Assembly (NCBI GenBank): GCA_009773355.1
Contig: WRPG01000038.1
Location: 1-51,385 of the forward strand
Origin: Limisphaerales bacterium
Lineage (GTDB): Bacteria; Verrucomicrobiota; Verrucomicrobiia; Limisphaerales; SXTU01
Direction: 5' to 3'
Length of the DNA: 51,385 nucleotides
The notes beneath the pieces are model-generated. The model worked only from the letters and a program-made list of their open reading frames with translations, did not search any database and was not told the DNA's origin. The number at the start of each line of letters is the position of its first letter. Position 1 is the first letter of the stretch. A program made the position numbers and the translations under genes. Of this stretch, positions 2,793 through 34,684 are shown in pieces.

Positions 2793-3191
2793 TCACAGCG
2801 TGTGACCGCTGCCCGAGAGGCTGCACGTCGGCGAGCCGGAGACCGTGCTGGCGGCGCTGTAGGTGCCGCCGCCGGGGCAGGCCGGCAGGAGCGAGCCTTT
2901 CAGGTAGGCGAGCAGCGTGGTGTCCGTCAGGGCATACGTGTCCGTGGCGGCCTTCTTGTTTTCGAGCGCCCAGCTTTGCACCGCGCCGTCCACCTGCTTG
3001 AGGTTGGCGATGCAGGCGTTCTTCTGGGCCGTGGCGCGCGCCTTCACGAAGTTCGGGATGGCGATGGCGGCCAGCAGGCCGATGATGGCGACAGCGCGCC
3101 GCACTTGGTTATGAGTGATGATTGCAAGTGCCGCCGGCGACAGGCCGGCGACAGTGAGAATCGTAGCGTGGGCTGTGCCGGGTGATGACAA
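2793..3191 (-). pseudogene. GspG/PulG-like pseudopilin with its prepilin signal replaced
   Basis: From codon 33 onward (forward position about 3092 and below) the product is a textbook type II secretion-like major pseudopilin: VAIIGLLAAIAIPNFVKARA, then NLKQVDGAVQSWALENKKAA and a CPGGGTY motif near the C-terminus, typical of verrucomicrobial pseudopilins. The segment that should precede it (RRGFTLIELMVV, with the Gly/Phe prepilin peptidase site and Glu+5) is absent. The frame instead reads LSPAALAIITHNQVRRA from an unrelated GC-rich sequence containing GCCGGCGACA direct repeats. Without the signal the protein could not be processed by PilD or inserted correctly, so I treat it as a 5'-disrupted pseudogene. 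No replacement FTLIE motif is visible in the other frames upstream. An assembly error at the repeat is a possible alternative. It is the last gene of the pilin operon. Confidence 0.75.
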
Positions 3192-3391
3192 TAGTCACAA
3201 CTATTTAGGCCCTGACCGCGAAAGCGCCCGGCAGCGACCAGGAGTGGCGGGTTGTTCCGGTTCACGGTGGTGTTTCCTGGCGGAGGCGAGCGGGGCGGGG
3301 CGGGGGGGAGCCGGGCGGGGAAGGCCGTTTGTGAACAGCCTGGGGATCGAAGGCAGGGGGAGGGCCGGGCAGATTCCGGCCTGGCAAACGG

Positions 3392-4957
3392 TCAGATTTC
3401 CGCCCACGAATCAATGATGAAGGCGGCGGAAGGTCCGTTGCGGCCCAGATTCTCGTCGTAGTGGAACTCGAAGTGGCCGTTCAACTGCGCGGAGCCGACG
3501 ATGGCCGCGCCCATGAAGTCGGCGCGGTCCATGCCGCCGCCATTGTAGGTCATGTGTGCCTGGGGCGCATACAGGGTGCCGGTGAACTCGGAGTTGCCGC
3601 TGAAGCTGATGCTGGTGCAACTGGGCAGGCCGTTGATGCGCATGCGCGTGGCGTCGCCGGTGGTGTTGACCGCCGCGTTGCCGGTGAAGCTCACCGAGCC
3701 GCCGACCCAGACTTGGAGGGTGCCGGAGTTGCCGATGGTGATGGCGCTGCCACCGGACTGGGAAACGCTGCCCTGGACGTAGAGGCGGGCGTTGCCGCGG
3801 ACGAGGATGTTGGCGCTGCTGATGCCGGAGAGGTAGTAGTCACCGTTGTCGAGGACATAGTCGTAGGTGGCCACGGTGGAGTTGGTGGTGTAGCTGTTCG
3901 TGTTGTAGGCGAACTGGGTGTAGGTGTAGTTCGTGGCGTAGGTGGTGGTGGTCGTCTTGCCTTTCTTCTCCGTGGTGGCGGTGACGTTGGTGGTCACGGG
4001 GTAAGTGGTCCCGCTGGGATAGGTGGTGGTGGTGGGGCGGTTGGAGGAGACCGTGCCAACGTAAGCCGACGGGAAGGCCAGGGAGGTGGCGGCGGCGAGG
4101 TTGGTGATGATGTCAATGTTGGTCACGCTGCCGCCGGAGGGGATGATGCCGGACGTGAAGGGCGCCACCGCATCCGGGAAGGCGACGTTCAGGTCGTCCT
4201 GCGAGTGGCCGGTCTGGATGCCGGTGCCGCCGCCGGCGATGAAGGCCGCGTCCCCCACCGCCCCGTGCGATCCGGTGGTGATGACTCCCATGGGCCCCGT
4301 GCCGGCGCTGCCGTAGATGGTGCCGTTCGCGCCGACATCCACGTTGCCCTCCACGGAGCCGATGGAGCCGTTGTCTTTCCGAAGCGCCGGGTTGTAGCGC
4401 CCGCCGGTGCTGTAGGCGGGATCCAGCGAGTCAAAGCTGTCGGAGAGGATGCTGCCGTTCCAGTTGATGGTGCCGCGCGCCACCAGCCCGCGCGCAAAGA
4501 GCGCGCCGCCCACGGTCTGCACTTGGATGGTGCGCGAGATCATGTCCGTGGTGGACAGCGGCTTGGGCATGTTGCCCTGCACGGTGAGGGTGGGCGTGGT
4601 GCCGCTCTGGATGGCGGCGATGAAGTTGCCGCCGTTCAGGTCGCGGGACTTGTAATAGACCGAGCCGGTGAGCGAGATGCCGTTGCTCATGGTCAGGCCC
4701 GAGGTGCTGAGGGTCCAGCCCTGGCTCGCGAGATTCGTGCTGTTGAGATAGACGTGGGTGAGCGCCTCCTCGAGGCCGCTCTCCGCGACCGGAATGCAGG
4801 AGTTCCACACGCCGGAACGGATCACGGACCGGTGCGCCGCGCTGCTGAGGTCCATGAAGGCCGCGAGGGTGATGCCGATGATCATGGAGATCAGCAGGGT
4901 GACCACGAGCACGCTGCCAGCGCGGCGGGAGGGATGGGGGAGGGCGAGGAGTCTCAT
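3392..4957 (-). CDS. PilX-like minor pilin with a large C-terminal surface domain
   Basis: The 521-residue protein starts with a short basic leader, then a hydrophobic helix (SVLVVTLLISMIIGITLAAF, about 15-34) and the conserved motif AESGLEEAL (58-66) found in PilX and GspK-like minor pilins. The rest is a beta-rich extracellular region: Asn/Gly-rich repeats, then a Thr/Tyr-rich tract at about 308-368, then a right-handed-helix-like part (NILVRGNARLYVQGSVSQSG) resembling the DUF7305 or 'collagen-binding' type domain of PilX-related proteins. The leader has Gly14 at the likely cleavage point but no Glu+5, as expected for PilX/GspK. It starts 7 bases after the PilW-like stop, so the two are cotranscribed. 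The 200-base gap to the damaged GspG-like gene contains repeats. Confidence 0.75.
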   Translation of the reverse strand: MRLLALPHPSRRAGSVLVVTLLISMIIGITLAAFMDLSSAAHRSVIRSGVWNSCIPVAESGLEEALTHVYLNSTNLASQGWTLSTSGLTMSNGISLTGSVYYKSRDLNGGNFIAAIQSGTTPTLTVQGNMPKPLSTTDMISRTIQVQTVGGALFARGLVARGTINWNGSILSDSFDSLDPAYSTGGRYNPALRKDNGSIGSVEGNVDVGANGTIYGSAGTGPMGVITTGSHGAVGDAAFIAGGGTGIQTGHSQDDLNVAFPDAVAPFTSGIIPSGGSVTNIDIITNLAAATSLAFPSAYVGTVSSNRPTTTTYPSGTTYPVTTNVTATTEKKGKTTTTTYATNYTYTQFAYNTNSYTTNSTVATYDYVLDNGDYYLSGISSANILVRGNARLYVQGSVSQSGGSAITIGNSGTLQVWVGGSVSFTGNAAVNTTGDATRMRINGLPSCTSISFSGNSEFTGTLYAPQAHMTYNGGGMDRADFMGAAIVGSAQLNGHFEFHYDENLGRNGPSAAFIIDSWAEI

Positions 4958-25872: not shown

Positions 25873-28800
25873 TCACTTCTTCACTTGAGGCGTTGGCTTC
25901 AATTCCAAGACGCCCAAGTCCACCGGGATTGAAGCCGTCACGCTGTCGGCCTCCGGCACGACAACCGTCTTGGCAACCGAGCCGAGGGTCGGGCCGTGTG
26001 GGAGGAACTGATTGGTTGCGGTGGCGCGCGGTCCAATGAACAAGTTGTAGGCGCCGGGCAGCACGTCATCCACGCGGAAGCCGCCGTCGGGGTTGAAGAG
26101 GAGCACATACTCGCGGCGGTTGAGTTGTGCGGCGCGTCCGGCGGGCGAGCGCTCAAATTCCTGCCGCCGTTGGTTGATCTGGTTCACTGCGGCGGCGAAG
26201 GCTTCACGGGTTGCGAAATCGCGGGAGCTTGGATAGGTGTTGATCTCCTTCGGATACTCCCGGACTGAGGTCAGCCGATGCACATCCTGCCGCCATTTCA
26301 CCTTGCGCTCCAAACCCTCGGCCGTGACGCGCCCGACGACCGCCCTTCCCGCGCCGCCCAACCGCACCTGTGCCGTCGCACCGGGCCGCACGGTGACGCG
26401 AACTGTGTGGCTTTCGGGACTCAGGCCGATGCTGACGGGGATGTCAGGCTCGAACGAGACTGAGTGCTCGCCGGGCGGGACGAACTCGAAAGCGAAGCGT
26501 CCCTCGGACTGGGCTTTGGCTCGACCGAAAGGCGACACCGCGTGATCGGGGTTGATGACCCATTGCGGAGAGTGGAGCTTTACGGCCAGCCCCTCGGTGG
26601 AGTTCGTGCCGAGCCTGAGTTCACCTTCGATGCGTCCCCAAGGCTGTAGTTCCAGCGCATAGTCGGCGCGTGCCGCACCCATTCTCAGTTCGGCGATGCC
26701 ACTGGGATGAACGGCGACCAGCCACTGCGGGTTCAGTTGCGGATTTAGACTGAACGTGCCGTCGTCAGCGGTGGTGGTGAACGCGCCGTTCTGCGGTTTG
26801 AAGGTGCTCAGGGCAAGCCGCCCGCCGCCTTCAAGCGGGAGAAGCGTCCGCTCCGTGGCCAAGACCACTGTGACACGCGCGACCGGCTCGCCGGTTGGCG
26901 AGCGCACCACTCCCCGGACAGGCGCGGCCTTGCGGAGTGTGAAGTTCAAAGTCTCAGACGCGTCCTGACCCCAGGTGTTGGTCGTTCGCGCGGGCAAATA
27001 TCCTTCCGCACGCACTTCGGTGAGGAACTGCGGCACTCCGTCCATCAGGAAGTTGTAATGCCCCGCGCTGCCGCTGGCGGCCAAGGCCAAATCTCCAAAC
27101 TCGCGCAACCGGCTTGCTTGGGACCCCGGCCCGACATAAACGCGCGGTCGCGCCGTGAACACCTCAAATCGCTTCAAGGGCTGGCCGGTCTCGGCGTCCG
27201 TCACCCGCCCGGCAAACCTCGCCGACTTCGGGCTGCCGGCTCCTTGCCGCCTCAGCGTGATGAATTGCTCCGTGCCATCCGCAATCAGCGGCAGGTTGGT
27301 CTGAGTCGAAAAGCCGTTTGCCGTGACGATGTAGGCTTCCTGATACGCCGGAGCCGCCAGCCACTCGAACCGTCCCTTCGCATCGCTGCGGCCGGTCCAT
27401 TCGATGGTCTGCGTGTTGTGCCGGCTGGGGCCGGTGGTGATTCGCGCGTCGGCCACCGGCTCGCCGGTCTCGTCGAGCACGCGTCCGCGCAACTCCCGGC
27501 CCGGCGGCAAAACGTAGCGGAACTCGTTGTTGGCCGGCTGGACTTGGAAGAGGTGATTCGTCGGGGCGTAACCGGCGGCGGCGATGGTCAGGTTCAGCCT
27601 CCCAAGGACGGCATTGCGGAAGCTGAAGCGGCCCTGGCCATCGGTGAGCACGCTGGAACCACGTTTCACGAAGAAGTGGTCCTGGGTGACCTTCGCGTTG
27701 GCCAATGGCTGCCCGGCCTCGTTCACCACCTGCCCGGCGACGACGATGCCCGGCTGCAGCATCATCACGGCGCGCTGCTCGGCCAGAGCGGACTTTGCCA
27801 CGCTCGGCTTGCGGCTCGTCGGATTCTCTGGAGCCTCCGTGTAGTAAGTGGCTTCCCGATAGTCCGGGTGGACCAGCCGGAAGTTGACCACGCCGAAGTT
27901 CGTGGGCACATGGTTGCAGCGCCACCGGCCTTGCACATCGGTGACCTCGGTGTGGTAGCTGCCCATCCACGTCAGGCGCTCTCGTTCTTTCCCATCCAAG
28001 GGCGAGGTGCTGTAAACATTGAAGACGACCAGCGCCCCGGCGACCGACTCGTTCAATTCCCCGGTGACGACCCCACCAATTTCCGTGCCGCGCTCCAGCC
28101 GGGTCGTGTGCTCACGGGGAAATTCCGCGAACAAGTCACCTTGGGCGAATGACCAACTGACATACTTGGGCACGTAGCCATCTCGGGAAACCTCCAAGCG
28201 GTAGTTCCAGTTCGTCACCTCCACGCTGGGGCGCGGCAGCCGGGCGATGCCTGTCCGGTCGGTCGTGAAATGATTCGTGCGCCGTCTGGGGTAGTCCGTG
28301 ATTTCCACCAGCATCAGGGCGACGTTGGCGAGTGGTGAATTGGAACTGGCATCCAGCACCCGGAAGACGAACTGGTTCGCCGCAGGCACCGCCGTGGCCG
28401 AGGCTGTGGCGCTGCTGGATTTCGCAGGAGGGGCCGAGGGCCGCTGTTTGCCAGTTGTGCCGCCGGGTGCAAGAGCAGTTTCGGGCATGGAGTTGGCAGG
28501 CGGACTCGCGAGCCAGACAACCGCAGTCACCGTGACCAAGGCGGCGGCCCCGCGCCAGAGCAGGGTTTTGAAGCGGAGCCATGCGATAGCTTCGATGGCG
28601 GTTTGCGCGAGGGAGGAAAGCGTCGCCCCAGTCAACACGCTGGCGGCGGCGGTGGTCACAGTCGCTGCCAAACCGACGGGCGCGGCCTGCACGCAGTTGC
28701 CCGCAAGGGCCGTCGCGAGGATGGCGGCGGGGACTTTGGCCCCGTGTTGCTCGAAGTAGGCGCGGAGCTTGTCCAGCGCGCGGGTGACGCGCTTTTGCGC

Positions 28801-29268
28801 GGTGTCGTCGGTGATGCCGAGGGTTTGGCCAATCTCGCGAAAACTCCGCTGGTCGAAATAGCGCAGGGCCAACGCGTCGCGGTCGCGGTCGCAGAGTTGG
28901 ACTAGGGCTTCATCGAGCAGCGGGGCGATGCGTTCCCAGGCGGCGTCGGACTCGGAGCGGTGGAGGAGCGTGTTCATGGCGGCCTCTTCGCGGTGACGGC
29001 GGCGGGTTTCGTGGCGGAGGGCATTGGCAGCAACGAAGCGAGTAGTGCGCAGCAACCAGCCGGAGAGAATAGTGCCGGCGGGCAGCGCACCGGCTTTGTG
29101 GGCGAGGATTTGGAATACGGCGGAGGCGATGTCCTCAGCAAGGGCGTGGTCGCGCACCTGCCGGCGAGCGGCGGACCAGACGAGGTTCACGTAACGCTCG
29201 ACGAGCGCGGCGAAGGCGGCTTCCGAGCGTCCGGCGGCGAATTCTCGAAGCAAGGTTTGGTCATCCAT
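25873..29268 (-). CDS. ECF sigma factor fused to a membrane anchor and carboxypeptidase-regulatory-like repeats
   Basis: The protein has 1131 residues. Residues 5-95 are sigma-70 region 2 ([38 protein letters not shown]). Residues 111-172 are region 4 ([40 protein letters not shown]). A hydrophobic stretch (181-214), common in this lineage's ECF extensions, and a transmembrane helix near 239-254 ([15 protein letters not shown]) follow. A Ser/Ala/Pro-rich linker leads to about 830 residues of repeated beta-sandwiches with 'GxVxDxxGxPxxxAxV' and 'TDxxGRFxF' motifs ([53 protein letters not shown]), similar to carboxypeptidase regulatory-like (CarboxypepD_reg) domains. The inferred topology places sigma in the cytoplasm and the repeats outside the membrane. 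The protein may be both sensor and transcription factor; no anti-sigma gene is adjacent. Start: ATG at 29268, with [10 protein letters not shown] as region 2 begins. Confidence 0.85.
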
Positions 29269-29445
29269 AATCGCGTTTCACCCGGAGAATGTCTGATGGA
29301 GGCGATAATCCGACAAACCAGGTGAAAGTCTGGCGAAAATTGAGCCGGGCTTGGCTCGCGAATTACTCGATTCCGCGCAAATGACCCGGAGAAGAGGGCG
29401 AAGCGCCTGACGAACCGGCTCGCGGGGACGCTCGCCCCACCAACC

Positions 29446-30669
29446 TCACGGCTCCAGCCGCGCGAAGAGGCACTTGAGATACTGCGCCTCGGGGAAGGTG
29501 GCCGGGTGATCCGGCGCGTGCGTGGTTCGCGCAAGTTCCACAAACGGGCGGCGTGAGGAATGCAGCGCGTCCAGCACGGCGGTGAAGAATTCCCCCGTCG
29601 AGACGTGCGCGGAGCAGGAGGCGGCCACGAGGATGCCTCCCCGGCGCAGGCGCGGGAGGCCCAGTTCGGTGAGCTTGCGATACGCCTGAATCGCGCCCGC
29701 CCGCTCGGTCTCGCGCTTGGCGAGCGACGGCGGGTCGAGGATGGCCAGATCGAAGTCCGCGCGGGAGCTTGCGGCCAGCCAGTCGAAGGTGTCGGCCTGC
29801 GCGCACTCGTGGTGGCAGGCGGCGATGTGCGGGTCGGCGGCGTTCAGCGCGAAGTTGCGGCGGGCGGAGTCGAGCGCGTGCGGGCTGATGTCGAGGTCGG
29901 TCGTGCTGCGCGCGCCGCCGCGCGCGGCGTAGAGGGAGAAGCCGCCGGAGAAGCTGAAGGCGTTCAACACGTCGCGTCCGGCGGCGAGCGTCTCGACGCG
30001 GCGGCGGTTCTCGCGCTGGTCGAGGAAGAACCCGGTCTTCTGCCCGCGAATGACTTCGGCCTCGAAGCGGATGCCGGTTTCGAGGAAGATGACGGGGCCG
30101 GCGGGTGCGGGGCCGGCGAGCACCTGGCCGTCGCGCAGGTTGAACTCCTTCTCGGCGAGCGTCTGGATGTTGCGGCTGAGGCGGAGGACGAGGCGTTCGG
30201 GCCGGAGCGCAGTTCCCAGCCAGCCGACGACTTCACCCACGCGCGGCAGCCACGCGGCGGTGTAGAGCTTGAGCACGAAGGTCGTGTCGTAACGATCGAG
30301 CACGAGGCCGGGCCAGCCGTCGCTCTCGCCGCTGAGGCAGCGGTAGCCGATGGTTTGCGCGTCGAAGAGTCCGTCGCGGCGGGCCAAGGAACTTCTCAGC
30401 CGCGCGCGCCACCAGGCGTCATCGGCGGTCGCGGGCTTGCCGTGGTGCAGCACGCGCACGCGGATGGGCGAGAGCGGGTCGTAGAGGCCGAGCGCGAGGA
30501 ACTTGTCGCGGCGGTCGAAGATGACCGCGAGTTCGCCCGGCGTGCCGGGGCGGTTTTGCTCGCGGATGCTGGCATCGAAGAGCCACGGGTGCCCGCCGCG
30601 AATCATGGACTCGGCGGTGGCGGTCACGCGCAGGCGCAGGCGCGGCGGGTTGGATGGGGCATCAGCCAC
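29446..30669 (-). CDS. RlmI/RlmK-like 23S rRNA (cytosine) methyltransferase
   Basis: The 407-residue class I SAM methyltransferase has an N-terminal PUA-like region ([15 protein letters not shown]), an EEHAD-like middle and the catalytic Rossmann domain: [28 protein letters not shown] and the motif [15 protein letters not shown] late CSAHVS is consistent with the m5C family. It probably methylates a cytosine in 23S rRNA in the ribosome assembly pathway. The start codon is GTG at 30669 (GTGGCTGATGCC). The gene stands alone in the minus direction, upstream of the sigma-fusion gene with a 177-base gap. Confidence 0.9.
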
Positions 30670-33091: not shown

Positions 33092-34684
33092 ATGCTCGTC
33101 GGTTACGTCAGTGACGAACGCTACGTCGCCCAGGCGGACGTGCTGCTGGAGTTCGTGGATGCGCGAGGGAACTCGTTTGAGGCGCGCTCGCGGGCGAGCG
33201 GAGCGGTTCACGCGGAACTGCCGGCCGGGGACTACAAGGTGATTTTGCAGAAGCCGGGCTTCGGCGCGAAGTTTTCGCGCGTGACGGTTCCCGCGCCCAC
33301 GCCGCACCAGTTCCGACTGCTGGCGGATGGCTTGCTCGGCTACGTCTGGCCCAAGTGGGTGCGCGGCGGGGAGGAGGGCGAGTTCCGCGTCCACGCCGTC
33401 GAGCAGTATGAGTTGACGCTGTGGCGCTACGGCGCGCGGCCGGAGCTGGTCCGGCAGCTCGGCTGGCACGACGAGCATGGGCCGCGCGCGACGATGCAGG
33501 TCACGCCCGACGGCGATTACACGCGCACCGGGACCGAGTGGAACAAGGTGGGCTACGTCAGCCCGACGCATCGGCAGTTCGTGACGGCCCCGGAGCGGAG
33601 CGGCCTGTATTACTTCCGCGCCCGCACACCGTCGGGCCGGCAGTTTTCGTTTCCATGGATCGTCGCGCCGGCCAGGCCGGCCGCGCGGCTCGCCGTGCTG
33701 GCGTCGAACATCACTTGGAACGCCTACAACTCCTTCGGTGGCCGCAGCAATTACATCCACGCCGACCAACTGCCGGCCACGCCCACGGTCAACTCGCGCT
33801 TCGAGCTGCCGCGCTACACCGACGCGGAACACGGGACCTGGGGCTACCAGGGTTATGCGCCGCTGTCGTTCGAACGGCCGGAACCGTTCCTGCACATTGA
33901 CTTCGCCGAGCAGCTCACCGACCCGATCGAGGGCCGGCAGGCGTGTCATCTCGCGCCTGCCGAGTGGCGGCTGCTGGGCTGGCTCGAACAGCAGCAGATT
34001 CCCTGCGACTACTACGCCGAGACGCAGTTGGACGACGGCACGCTGGATCTGTCCGCCTACCGCGTGCTGGCGCTGGCCGTTCACCCCGAATACTGGACCC
34101 GGCGGATGTATGACCGCGTGAAGCAGTGGGTTTTCGAGCAGGGCGGCCGGCTGGTCTATCTCGGCGGCAACGGGCTGAACTGCGAAGTGGAGCTTCACGC
34201 GAACGGCTCGATGACGGTTCACAACGGCAGCATCACGTCGCTGTGGAACACCGGCATGGGCGGGCGCGAAAGCCGCTTCGCCGTCCGGCACGAATCCGAG
34301 GCCAGCGTGCTCGGGGTCGTGTTCACGCCGGCGGGCGCGATGACCGGCGCGCCGTATCGCGTCGAGGATGGTTCGCATTGGGTTTTCGAGGGCACAGGGC
34401 TGAAGACGGGCGATGTCTTCGGCGAAGCGAGCTTGCACCGGCGCTGTCCGGGCGGCGCTTCCGGGCACGAGACGGACAAGCGTTCTCCGAGTTCTCCGCC
34501 CAACACCCGGTTGCTCGCGCGCGGCCTGAATCCCGACGACGGCGGCGCGGAGATGGTCATCTTCGACACGGCCAACGGCGGCGCGGTGTTTTCCGTCGGC
34601 TCCATCAACTACGTCGCCTCGCTCCCCGTGGACGCGGCGGTGTCCCGCATCACGGCGAACGTGCTGAAACGGTTTCTCTCCTGA
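33092..34684 (+). CDS. N,N-dimethylformamidase large-subunit-like protein
   Basis: The 530-residue protein belongs to the DMFase beta-subunit-like family. An N-terminal carboxypeptidase-like beta-sandwich (AHAELPAGDYKVILQKPGFG-type; about 1-75) is followed by the conserved core VLASNITWNAYNSFGGRSNY (about 205-225), the ERPEPFL segment, and a class I glutamine amidotransferase-like domain (VLALAVHPEYWT, GGRLVYLGGNGLNCE). In DMFase this subunit contains a mononuclear iron site and cleaves dimethylformamide, but most homologues outside methylotrophs have unknown substrates. The gene is 8 bases upstream of the enolase-superfamily gene. The small subunit of true DMFase is not in the window, so a different amide or substrate is likely. 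Confidence 0.8.
   Translation: MLVGYVSDERYVAQADVLLEFVDARGNSFEARSRASGAVHAELPAGDYKVILQKPGFGAKFSRVTVPAPTPHQFRLLADGLLGYVWPKWVRGGEEGEFRVHAVEQYELTLWRYGARPELVRQLGWHDEHGPRATMQVTPDGDYTRTGTEWNKVGYVSPTHRQFVTAPERSGLYYFRARTPSGRQFSFPWIVAPARPAARLAVLASNITWNAYNSFGGRSNYIHADQLPATPTVNSRFELPRYTDAEHGTWGYQGYAPLSFERPEPFLHIDFAEQLTDPIEGRQACHLAPAEWRLLGWLEQQQIPCDYYAETQLDDGTLDLSAYRVLALAVHPEYWTRRMYDRVKQWVFEQGGRLVYLGGNGLNCEVELHANGSMTVHNGSITSLWNTGMGGRESRFAVRHESEASVLGVVFTPAGAMTGAPYRVEDGSHWVFEGTGLKTGDVFGEASLHRRCPGGASGHETDKRSPSSPPNTRLLARGLNPDDGGAEMVIFDTANGGAVFSVGSINYVASLPVDAAVSRITANVLKRFLS

Follow-up and report, generated by a model that had tools for sequence, protein, structure and literature searches.

Several sigma factors are already known to carry a membrane-bound C-terminal extension, among them ECF48, ECF52, ECF53 and ECF243 and the WD40-bearing ones of Planctomycetes. 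ECF52 (SCO4117 of Streptomyces coelicolor), ECF48 and ECF53 combine a sigma factor with a membrane helix and an outside domain, and proteolytic release has been proposed for them (PMC8999054). The ECF243 member IutY of Pseudomonas putida carries a fused anti-sigma factor, is freed by Prc and RseP and acts in siderophore cell-surface signalling; IutY provides a precedent for proteolytic release and SCO4117 one for a periplasmic domain (PMC8999054). Large C-terminal extensions also occur in ECF57 and further planctomycete ECF factors with WD40 domains (PMC8999054, PMC8567305). Nothing specific was found in the literature on tethered sigma factors of Verrucomicrobia.

P0001 is a 1131 amino acid protein encoded by an uncultured Limisphaerales bacterium (Verrucomicrobia), at 25873..29268 on the (-) strand of the 51,385-nucleotide stretch of DNA that was analysed (the window); all features of P0001 given below are on this strand. 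The gene starts with ATG, contains no internal stop and shares its architecture with 28 homologues, and its neighbours are an RlmI-like gene (29446-30669) and a DUF4126 gene (Pfam). The original prediction had described a single frame without stop or frameshift that joins ECF regions 2 and 4 to a membrane segment and to extracytoplasmic repeats in place of a separate anti-sigma factor, and this outline has held: the Pfam search that it proposed matched Sigma70_r2, Sigma70_r4 and CarboxypepD_reg, no anti-sigma gene was recognised beside P0001, and no anti-sigma family is among those listed for the neighbours of its homologues. P0001 accordingly has no recognisable co-transcribed cognate anti-sigma gene of the kind that the original definition of ECF factors called for, a requirement since dropped (PMC8103513).

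Like ECF52, ECF48 and ECF53, P0001 unites an ECF sigma factor, a membrane helix and an outside domain in a single chain, with one to two membrane helices predicted after the sigma domains as in those groups. However, the latter are actinobacterial and contain a zinc-finger anti-sigma domain between sigma4 and the membrane helix, whereas residues 171-298 of P0001 have no match in Pfam, and the ectodomain of P0001 consists of about 830 residues of CarboxypepD_reg-type repeats. In IutY the sigma factor is likewise joined to a membrane-bound regulatory part, but P0001 has no FecR-type anti-sigma match (Pfam) and no siderophore signalling system was found for it. The large C-terminal extension is reminiscent of ECF57, and a paralogue in the same genome (L022) ends in a WD40 propeller; WD40-like repeats are nevertheless what prevails in ECF57, as against CarboxypepD_reg in P0001, and the phylum differs. 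Membership of ECF57 was rejected because the sigma2-sigma4 cysteine pair is missing: the sigma domains of P0001 hold one cysteine (126), and across the sigma domains of 109 family members at most 13 share a cysteine at any one position.

Region 2 (residues 22-90, 28999..29205) is matched by Pfam PF04542 with 31.6 bits and region 4 (residues 121-170, 28759..28908) by PF04545 with 40.6 bits, and the NCBIfam sigma70-ECF model matches the N-terminus with E=1.6e-19. The promoter-binding parts are regions 2 and 4 only, region 3 being absent (Pfam, NCBIfam), which is the domain composition of ECF (group IV) factors. A fold search with the N-terminal AlphaFold2 model (mean pLDDT 81, pTM 0.40) retrieves ECF structures, SigW and sigmaE among them.

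The membrane segment expected behind the sigma domains coincides with the hydropathy maximum of the protein (residues 236-254, mean KD 1.73), and AlphaFold2 predicts a single long helix that starts at 217/219 and ends at 254 (219-254, 28507..28614, with the membrane core at about 236-254). A second, weaker candidate membrane segment, absent from the original prediction, lies at about 180-212, where the predicted helices are short (181-191 and 200-212, 11-13 residues). This stretch following sigma4 (residues 181-212, 28633..28728; alignment, AlphaFold2 and hydropathy) is hydrophobic and strongly conserved in the family, with VQAAPxGLA in most relatives, and no domain was recognised in it. The predicted topology is tentative: residues 180-212 are hydrophobic too, and charge counts flanking the membrane helix do not decide it across the family. 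The helix is followed by a low-confidence linker (residues 255-298, 28375..28506; AlphaFold2 pLDDT mostly <50).

The ectodomain (residues 299-1131, 25876..28374) is predicted by AlphaFold2 to be all-beta from residue 299 on, forming a string of transthyretin-like beta-sandwiches of about 830 residues with a helical insertion within the last beta domain (residues 1007-1049, 26122..26250). CarboxypepD_reg (PF13620) matches it above the cut-off in six stretches (135.7 bits, E=7e-40), of which residues 510-580 (27529..27741) are the best repeat (Pfam). The full-length model (mean pLDDT 78, pTM 0.49) retrieves only generic Ig/transthyretin-like strings such as pilins and alpha-2-macroglobulin with TM-scores near 0.1, and is therefore uninformative about a ligand. 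The number and size of the repeats had seemed unusual, an impression that did not last, as about 30 homologues of 880-1143 amino acids were seen in the order. Colinear relatives of the ectodomain occur behind M56/BlaR1 domains (L046, L047; Pfam), on M56-type proteins with a HELAH motif (L191, L200, L205) and on sigma-less proteins with signal-peptide-like N-termini (for example L192, L193 and L198). Since the same ectodomain is found on BlaR1/M56 receptors and on secreted proteins, its distribution argues that it is an extracytoplasmic, portable module, in agreement with the original prediction. The receptors L046 and L047 share about 800 colinear residues with P0001; in contrast to P0001, they use a membrane metallopeptidase as transducer and carry a thioredoxin-like domain behind the ectodomain. 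Two further matches were seen in the same genome: a weak CarboxypepD_reg match (25 bits, below the cut-off) at 33101-33304 (+) of the window within a 577-aa open frame, and a partial M56 domain that opens a 2911-aa frame at a contig start (L208, G000:C157:1-9500).

A contig scan with P0001 as a single-protein query returned no match, and the family loci were gathered with an alignment query, which yielded 80 loci and 111 frames matching the sigma part. The metagenome-assembled genomes (MAGs) that contain P0001-type loci are labelled mostly Verrucomicrobia, Limisphaerales or Pedosphaera; some match occurs in 94 of the 97 genomes, almost all of which belong to this order; more than 12 genomes have long matches over sigma and ectodomain, and the full-length P0001 form was seen in only one of 11 genomes of its genus. 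Regions 2 and 4 are present in all 71 shorter family members scanned, and the C-termini vary (WD40, TPR, RCC1, DUF3738, DUF3466, DUF4878, SecDF_P1_head, LRR and others). SecDF_P1_head is typically an exported type of domain, which would fit a C-terminus on the outside. Family genes often stand in tandem arrays of up to five members per locus (L092, L114), and no conserved neighbour genes were found. Judged by its sequence, P0001 represents one branch of an extensive family of putatively tethered sigma factors with swapped C-termini. In several arrays (L092, L114, L108, L131, L132, L123 and L133) decayed copies between intact ones retain the promoter. In the nearest relative of P0001 (L057:985-4371, from MAG palsa_1400), the position of a family tryptophan codon is taken by an in-frame TGA (about 2089), beyond which the match continues; a sequencing error, a pseudogene or read-through may explain it. 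One member (L105:8001-10910) is in a MAG labelled Abditibacteriaceae, outside Verrucomicrobia, and may reflect horizontal transfer or misbinning.

A search for promoters conserved upstream of homologues, suggested as a check by the original prediction, proved productive. The 8-mer TGTCGGAT occurs at a fixed position in 39 of 110 family upstream regions, compared with an expectation of 0.28 from shuffles preserving neighbour frequencies; in the 77 genes with a clear call TGTC lies at a median of -39 from the start codon (range -61 to -35), and a -10-like block (for example GCGATA, GGTTRTT, CGGBTAC or GACATT) stands downstream of it. The shorter of these distances would put the transcript start near the start codon, so that some members may produce a nearly leaderless mRNA. 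For P0001 the upstream motif search predicts an ECF-type promoter, TTGTCGGATT-N13-GACATT, with the -35 element at 29307..29316 and the -10 element at 29288..29293; the promoter stretch TTTGTCGGATTATCGCCTCCATCAGACATT falls in the intergenic space separating P0001 from the RlmI-like gene, its 3' end 19 bp from the ATG. The promoter has TGTCGGATT / GACATT rather than the AAC in -35 and CGT in -10 of the original ECF definition, a criterion since dropped (PMC8103513).

The -35 letters covary with a single residue of region 4. Residue-promoter codes have been reported for ECF factors, of which about 55% are autoregulated, and the approach of finding such a code is for this reason an established one; this sigma family and its code were not found in that literature (PMC8103513). 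Under strict calling, 77 genes were classed by the two letters after TGTC as GG, CG or CC. Residue 158 is Q in all 40 GG promoters and in 15 of 18 CG promoters, R in the remaining three CG promoters, which read TGTCCGGTT, and K in all 19 CC promoters, so that Q, K or R at this position agrees with the -35 letters in 77 of 77 genes, and in 89 of 89 under relaxed calling. Column 158 is the sole aligned column that splits off the CC class without exception, and Fisher's test of Q/K at 158 against class gives 5e-18, a value uncorrected for descent. On a tree built without column 158 the class labels need seven changes; independent pairs on well-supported branches go in the expected direction in three of three cases, with six pairs over all branches, numbers that are too few for a firm test alone. 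Genes fetched via the promoter pattern (L140-L188) were left out of the validation, and of 12 genes fetched otherwise, outside the covariation set, about 10 agree with the code, L034 deviates and L054 is ambiguous. In P0001 the residue is Q158 (codon 28795..28797); K in its place is predicted to match TGTCCCCTT. Residue 158 aligns with K170 of SigW and R171 of sigmaE; the crystal structures of both show this residue in contact with G'-31 of the -35 element (PMC6713349). Self-activation of the family genes is a well supported prediction because residue 158 tracks the gene's own -35 element and the equivalent residue contacts -35 DNA in SigW and sigmaE; as its promoter fits its own sigma factor, each member seems to switch on its own gene. 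P0001 would in this respect display positive autoregulation, a typical ECF trait, to judge from its own promoter and the covariation with sigma4.

With moderate confidence, P0001 can be regarded as a membrane-tethered, self-recognising ECF sigma factor whose tether restrains the sigma domains until a signal at the ectodomain frees them. This proposal builds on the fusion, the architecture, the promoter with its match to sigma4 and the exported nature of the ectodomain, as read from sequence, and would add to them a single membrane crossing, inhibition by tethering, a signal and a release step. The sigma domains would reside in the cytoplasm, one helix would cross the membrane and the string of beta-sandwiches would lie outside. 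The sigma part would recognise its own promoter, TTGTCGGATT / GACATT, and thereby set up a feedback loop in its own production, while the tether most likely holds it inactive or out of reach. A signal perceived by the ectodomain would then either change the shape of the protein or cause an RseP-type site-2 protease to cut it within or close to the membrane helix, and so free the sigma factor. A look for such a protease, another proposed check, revealed an RseP homologue of 466 aa with M50 and PDZ domains in the same genome, a protease of the type on which release by an IutY-like route would depend (PMC8999054). RseP-type proteases are near universal in bacteria, all 14 control genomes match this protease family, and the homologue is for that reason weak evidence for release. 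No ligand, anti-sigma domain, cleavage site or signal was identified for P0001.

It is also possible, if less probable, that the sigma part mainly expresses its own gene and same-promoter paralogues and that the outside domain is not a sensor but the working product, with a role in adhesion, binding or structure; positive feedback would then yield on/off expression of surface proteins. Three bipartite patterns searched over 966 kb around the family gave 38 sites, 36 before intact and two before decayed family genes, and none elsewhere. One pattern searched in 97 genomes gave 28 sites, 16 of them upstream of intact family genes; the other 12 comprise one contig-end-cut family gene, one family remnant, one unassigned site and nine chance-like sites, mostly inside other frames, against six in the reversed control. 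The P0001-type pattern has three matches in its own genome, of which two fall within other frames, and the L022 pattern matches once, at its own promoter; for either pattern, the family promoter is the one convincing match in this genome. So few promoters beyond the family's own would be odd for a sensor, the tandem arrays share the same promoter, and the P0001-type ectodomain also exists without any transducer. On the other hand, the search patterns, being derived from family promoters, would overlook looser targets, and the ectodomain is also carried by BlaR1-type receptors, where sensing is expected. At one locus (L093:2810-3860) family-type promoter-like sites precede decayed sequence and a small secreted-protein-like frame (2857-3399), the latter perhaps a target beyond the family. 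The occurrence of the ectodomain on M56 proteins speaks for a sensor, and a promoter set almost restricted to the family for a self-driving product; the tethered sensor is ranked first.

A less likely explanation is decay or alteration, in which a Q49S change would weaken core binding and leave the sigma part poorly active, P0001 being a mere membrane ectodomain or a disappearing copy. S49 in region 2.2 (codon 29122..29124) replaces a glutamine found in 108 of 108 relatives (family alignment) and also at the equivalent position of SigW and of Mycobacterium tuberculosis SigE, and it is the only departure of P0001 among sigma positions conserved at >=85%. In sigma70 the glutamine at this position contacts core RNA polymerase; since the invariant Q is replaced at the core-binding site, the core binding of P0001 may be weak or altered, which also counts against the sensor, and none of 10 further genomes of the genus showed another full-length homologue. 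Apart from S49, P0001 retains every conserved sigma position, an intact reading frame and the promoter, which speaks against decay. The idea that a frameshift or misassembly merged two genes, for which only the draft state of the genome (162 contigs) speaks, can be set aside, being ruled out by the 28 fused homologues from other genomes, which align with P0001 over sigma, membrane helix and ectodomain at 27-36% identity (29 proteins in all), and by a third-position G+C of 73-88% across all 12 100-codon blocks, unbroken at the fusion point.

Compared with the known tethered sigma factors, several features are new: an ectodomain of this size and type, which is exchanged with BlaR1-type receptors, the expansion of the family in tandem, and a promoter code together with a promoter set almost confined to the family itself. 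By virtue of the code, the promoter class would be predictable from one residue. The detectable regulon of the family may, on a tentative view, be the family itself, each chain supplying its own sigma factor and a membrane product, self-sustaining and perhaps on/off, with interchangeable surface domains spread in tandem and the one-residue code (158 against -35) keeping the classes apart. This raises the question of whether the main purpose of a sigma factor can be the expression of the surface protein fused to it. If the tethered-sensor reading is correct, P0001 would extend one-chain sigma signalling to a large family of an order known mainly from metagenome-assembled genomes.
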